Shown in pieces: positions 1 through 119 of a stretch of DNA of 64,000 bases; within the stretch, counting starts at the first letter, position 1, and each line of letters starts with the position of its first letter. The position numbers and the translations under genes were made by a program. The stretch is from Spirochaetota bacterium (GTDB taxonomy: Bacteria; Spirochaetota; UBA4802; JAFGJZ01). Under the pieces are notes generated by a model. It searched no databases. It worked only from the letters and a program-made list of their open reading frames with translations, and had not been told where the DNA came from. Where the stretch lies: positions 1 to 64,000 of the forward strand of contig JAFGRW010000082.1 in assembly GCA_016934935.1 (NCBI GenBank), read 5' to 3'.

Positions 1-84
1 CCCTTGGTGTTCAGCTATGTCTTTCCCACTACCGGGGCAGACTCGGGACTTTAACCCGTTAGATTGCGCCCATGCTGGGCGCAC
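1..84 (-). mobile_element. 5' end of a group II (probably IIC) intron, running off the window
   Basis: Read on the minus strand from 84 down to 1, the sequence begins GTGCGCCCAGCATGGGCGCA, followed by AATCTAACGGG and AAAGTCCCGAGTC. The GTGCG start is the conserved 5' boundary of bacterial group II introns, and this string matches what I recall of the domain I start of such introns. The intron begins 6 nt beyond the ppdK terminator hairpin, which is the known target preference of class C (IIC) introns. The reverse transcriptase/maturase and 3' end would lie outside the window. Intron identity is fairly secure; the IIC class is inferred from the insertion site. Confidence 0.75.
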
Positions 85-89
85 TAACA

Positions 90-119
90 AGACAGACGCC
101 CGGTACCAGGCGTCTGTTT
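90..119 (-). terminator. Intrinsic terminator of ppdK
   Basis: A 9-bp perfect stem (92-100 paired with 109-117) with an 8-nt loop lies 25 nt past the ppdK stop codon on the minus strand and is followed by CTTGTTA. The short T-rich tail may have been interrupted by the intron inserted at position 84. Confidence 0.8.

Follow-up and report, generated by a model that had tools for sequence, protein, structure and literature searches.

A group IIC intron immediately following the terminator of ppdK in a Spirochaetota bacterium, with related copies behind many other terminators

The ppdK locus at the contig edge

The window, a stretch of 64,000 nucleotides from contig JAFGRW010000082.1 of a Spirochaetota bacterium, starts where the contig itself begins, and this edge is occupied by the end of ppdK, its terminator and the first bases of an intron, all on the minus strand (Table 1). 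When the minus strand of positions 1-119 was read, the hairpin (117-92) was followed by CTTGTTA (91-85) and then by GTGCGCCCAGCATGGGCGCAATCTAACGGG..., which continued as far as position 1, where the contig stops. A GTGCG 5' boundary of the GUGYG type starts at position 84, confirming the group II boundary that the preliminary description had noted near the ppdK terminator. The same description had placed it 6 nt past a perfect hairpin; the nearby hairpin was found, while the exact values were not, as the spacing is 7 nt and the stem contains one G-T pair and is only nearly perfect. The 130 nt spanning the hairpin and the intron start folded with a z of -4.5, beyond chance.

Table 1. Features at the first edge of the window
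Feature	Position	Strand	Remarks
Group IIC intron, first 84 nt (GTGCGCCCAGCATGGGCGC...)	1..84	-	Read 84->1 (intron nt 1-84), truncated where the contig stops; identified from the copy in G001 and from the genome's 14 near-identical 5' ends
Exon tail CTTGTTA, hairpin-to-intron spacer	85..91	-	Ends in TTA, probably IBS1 of the ppdK lineage
Intrinsic terminator hairpin of ppdK	92..117	-	11 bp, loop of 4
ppdK, pyruvate, phosphate dikinase, 907 aa	145..2868	-	TIGR01828 at 1248 bits; 95% identical to G001

The CTTGTTA sequence, the short tail of ppdK, is part of the exon. TTA also ends eight of the nine exons belonging to the 5' subtype of the ppdK copy, and TTG ends the remaining one. The 5' end of the ppdK copy was 99% identical to a 667-nt intron copy in the same-genus genome G001 (record JAQIBV01, Spirochaetes bacterium GH29). 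The 84 nt include no domain V, RT sequence or 3' end, and the Rfam models gave no match in the window, which contains no more of the intron than this.

Copies of the intron, their pairing with a same-genus genome and their relatives

The genome contains 14 intact copies of the 5' end of the ppdK lineage and a further, degenerate one (C94), almost all of them located where contigs end. The same run of 79-87 nt was found behind 14 different hairpins, and each of the intact 5' ends was inserted in sense orientation behind an intrinsic terminator. All 14 hairpins had folding energies of -11.4 kcal/mol or lower, compared with a mean of -5.0 across 140 positions drawn at random from the same flanks, 12% of which reached -10 or lower. 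At every one of the 14 contig ends, the intron bases and the exon bases common to another copy added up to exactly 87 nt. This constant overlap indicated that window position 1 is an assembly (k-mer) branch in the repeat and not a natural end. The repeat interrupts the assembly at 40 or more contig ends of the genome, and accounts for the contig end at the window start.

The domain V model RF00029 gave 20 matches in the genome, nearly all at contig starts and followed by domain VI and CTCGAT. The matches of the ppdK lineage exceeded the gathering score and led to a 3' end ...CTCGAT (of the AY type), a part beyond the 84 nt at which the ppdK copy is cut; the remaining eight matches represent another type (type B). 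RF02001 was matched in part on contig C94. The assignment of the two 5' subtypes, AAAG and AGAG, to the two domain V types was considered and rejected, since both subtypes pair with type A and type B belongs to a second lineage. The RVT_1 search of the assembled genome detected no reverse transcriptase (RT), which is explained, though not proven, by collapse of the intron interior in the assembly. In one copy (L035, G000:C69:1-229) most of the RT is gone: its N-terminal codons are joined to the last ones, and domain V and CTCGAT come next.

The 5' and 3' ends, lying on separate contigs, were paired through G001, of which approximately 2.5 Mb was read, by placing the flanks on it according to gene order. 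Eight 5' flanks and eight 3' flanks adjoin each other there (L006+L020, L009+L021, L003+L022, L004+L023, L005+L016, L008+L017, L013+L034 and L014+L019), and no intron was seen at these loci in G001 wherever the junction sequence was readable. The terminator of the L013/L034 pair is letter-for-letter identical in the intron-free G001 (AAAGCCCCTTCCGGATTAACCGGAAGGGGCTTTTTTT), as a precise insertion without target duplication would leave it, but the divergence of the exons further down may hide small changes. No counterpart of the gene that follows ppdK in G001 was detected in the Spirochaetota genome, and the 3' partner of the ppdK intron was not reached by this route.

The family was identified from its longer members. 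The G001 copy of 667 nt matched RF02001 (149.9 bits) and RF01998 and continues into an RT, with just the N-terminal 85 codons present. A complete relative in a Bacillota MAG (L067), 79% identical to the ppdK-lineage intron over 669 nt, encodes an RT of 472 aa matching TIGR04416 at 422 bits together with RVT_1 and GIIM, and an endonuclease domain was not matched in this protein. The first 29 nt of the intron are common to 52 loci, nearly all from Clostridia and nearly all behind a hairpin.

Two other RT-bearing loci were recorded. The intron of Lutispora saccharofermentans (L090, 7131 down to ~5256) combines the 5' half and the first RT codons of the ppdK lineage with a remaining RT and a domain V like those of another intron, and looks like a chimera or a nested insertion. 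The sole RVT_1 match in G001 is a 568-aa RT (L052:316-2613, on G001:C53) beside a variable gene, and the start of this RT resembles the C-terminal repeat of that gene (NNNCVWPVRSG). It looks unlike an intron RT and is probably that of a diversity-generating retroelement.

Target recognition and the nature of the ppdK insertion

The four nucleotides following GTTGC or GCTGC in domain I, a position which we take to be EBS1 by comparison with the O. iheyensis intron, matched the last exon bases at 38 of the 44 positions compared across 11 related introns. No equally good result came from 20,000 permutations, supporting the placement. Sites paired with a sister genome, together with covarying EBS1 and IBS1, thus provide a natural test of the target determinants.

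We consider it almost certain that a mobile group IIC (bacterial class C) intron, reverse-spliced just behind the intrinsic terminator of ppdK, has its 5' end at positions 84-1 on the minus strand of the window, as the preliminary description had proposed. The repeated junction with its 14 identical 5' ends, its position behind terminators, the domain V and CTCGAT of 3' ends elsewhere in the genome, the syntenic 5'/3' pairs at loci without an intron in the same-genus genome, and, in relatives, the Rfam matches, the RT/GIIM and the EBS1-IBS1 match were all observed. For the ppdK copy itself, we infer the full sequence, the splicing and the mobility. From established IIC biology we also infer that the intron RNA and an endonuclease-less RT would recognise the terminator as a DNA hairpin plus 3-4 nt of IBS1, that IBS1 would pair with EBS1 in domain I, and that insertion would occur at the end of the T-tract, with the inserted intron copied from a primer supplied by the replication fork. 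Genes would stay intact when the intron lands behind their terminators.

A multi-copy repeat adjoining palindromes could also be a non-intron element, such as a REP-like palindrome or an insertion sequence, that merely resembles an intron start. This was already refuted at the family level because of domain V and the maturase of the relatives; the Rfam models for domains I-IV and for domain V match the ppdK-lineage family, the relatives show the EBS1-IBS1 match, and such a repeat is extremely improbable at ppdK as well. That only a degenerate, non-mobile 5' fragment lies behind ppdK instead of a full intron is improbable to a lesser degree. Such remains do exist, as some terminators of G001 are followed by second-lineage fragments lacking domain V, and the copy on C69 is without most of its RT. 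The ppdK copy, however, does not differ from the others anywhere in the full 87-nt overlap, and several copies pair with intact 3' ends.

Another possibility concerned the consequences for ppdK, namely that the insertion shortened the T-tract, making termination leaky and allowing transcription of the intron by read-through, as the preliminary description had suggested. The tail CTTGTTA, with only 4 T in 7 nt, is indeed weaker than most other sites. The comparison of filled and empty sites, however, gave no sign of shortening: L013/L034 has 7 T both with the intron and at the identical empty site in G001, the counts for L009/L021 were 6 vs 5 and those for L006/L020 were 7 vs 8 (own genome vs G001), and other pairs also have full T-tracts. 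The 3' exons carry no displaced T-run; the T fraction was 0.40 and 0.34 at +1 to +10 and 0.34 and 0.36 at the positions beyond, and T occupies +1 in 10 of the 12 3' exons of the first type without any T-run thereafter. The hairpin behind ppdK in G001 differs and is likewise without a clear T-tract. The intron position is the end of the T-tract, and the ppdK tail is short by itself. Transcription of class C introns located behind terminators is expected to be rare (PMC8919778), which also counts against frequent read-through. The proposed shortening was thus not borne out, and the read-through found no support, the ppdK site itself being judged here by other loci; we regard this course of events as unlikely.

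The single intron copy in G001 lies not at a T-tract terminator but in a dispersed GC-rich palindrome (CACGAGGGGCTGCTGCCCCTCGACCCCGCA; L053:668-790 on the minus strand, L126, L138 and L150). Its EBS1, TGCG, matches CGCA at the end of the exon ...GACCCCGCA. Several other copies of the palindrome are empty and continue as ...GACCCCGCA|GGAGAAG without the intron, so that filled and empty copies are joined at the same base. We tentatively suggest that this same-genus IIC intron may have escaped the T-tracts of terminators through a change of EBS1 to TGCG and now sits after CGCA in a dispersed palindromic repeat, a reading somewhat short of an even chance. If true, targeting by a hairpin plus 4 nt would be evolving toward a new multicopy site.

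The second lineage and relation to known class C introns

A second lineage, with the 5' start GTTTGCCCAG..., is represented by nine copies in the genome, all nine inserted in sense orientation behind terminator hairpins with T-rich tails. One 5' end (GTTTGCCCAGCGAAGCTGGCAAACCC) was located on C68 via gene order, directly behind a terminator. Both lineages together account for at least 23 intact insertions behind terminators, and at 21 of 23 a co-directional ORF ends within ~215 nt upstream. An 850-nt element of the second lineage with both ends was found between a terminator and, downstream, an integrase-like ORF on a contig of a virus collection (L269:3290-4139, IMGVR_UViG_3300038761_000006), linking the 5' and 3' ends of this lineage. 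This element had no ORF of 100 aa, and the phage collection contained no relative of the second lineage.

The insertion of class C introns behind intrinsic terminators, which the preliminary description had given as known, is well established in the literature, together with attC as another target, the endonuclease-less RT and fork priming (PMC4424553, PMC8919778, PMC7161350). The introns described here share with B. halodurans B.h.I1, the O. iheyensis intron and Ta.it.I1 (PMC4424553, PMC8919778, PMC7161350) the sense insertion behind terminators, a short IBS1, the GUGCG start, domain V, the AU 3' end and, in relatives, an endonuclease-less RT. They differ from these in the spirochaete host, the presence of two lineages in one genome, the 23 or more insertions and an RT known from relatives. 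The text of the survey PMC8919778 makes no mention of spirochaetes. Post-terminator insertion is textbook IIC behaviour, and only the spirochaete host and the retargeted relative are mildly surprising.

The class C introns of Clostridia (Sedimentibacter hydroxybenzoicus, MAG JAKIML02 and Thermoclostridium) have the same first 29 nt and all lie behind terminators, the Sedimentibacter intron being 95-96% identical to the ppdK lineage over 108 nt, but they differ in EBS1/IBS1 and within domains I-IV. The second lineage has its counterparts in the LtrA introns on Pseudoalteromonas and Alteromonas plasmids, which bear the same intron with ltrA, sharing the 5' end GTTTGCCCAGCGAAGCTGGCAAACCC and domain V, also behind terminators. 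The RTs of the two lineages, as known from relatives, are only ~38% identical when this LtrA is compared with the RT of the ppdK lineage's relative. The spirochaete has been heavily colonised by two IIC lineages that both land behind terminators and have related introns in Clostridia and marine gammaproteobacteria. The class C-attC introns of integrons are IIC introns with a non-terminator hairpin as target (PMC4424553) and in this respect resemble the G001 copy in the palindromic repeat, whose target, though, is a dispersed repeat. In G001, terminators are also followed by second-lineage 5' fragments that lack domain V (from L237:11883 onward, and near 12444 of L141 on the minus strand) and look like old remnants.
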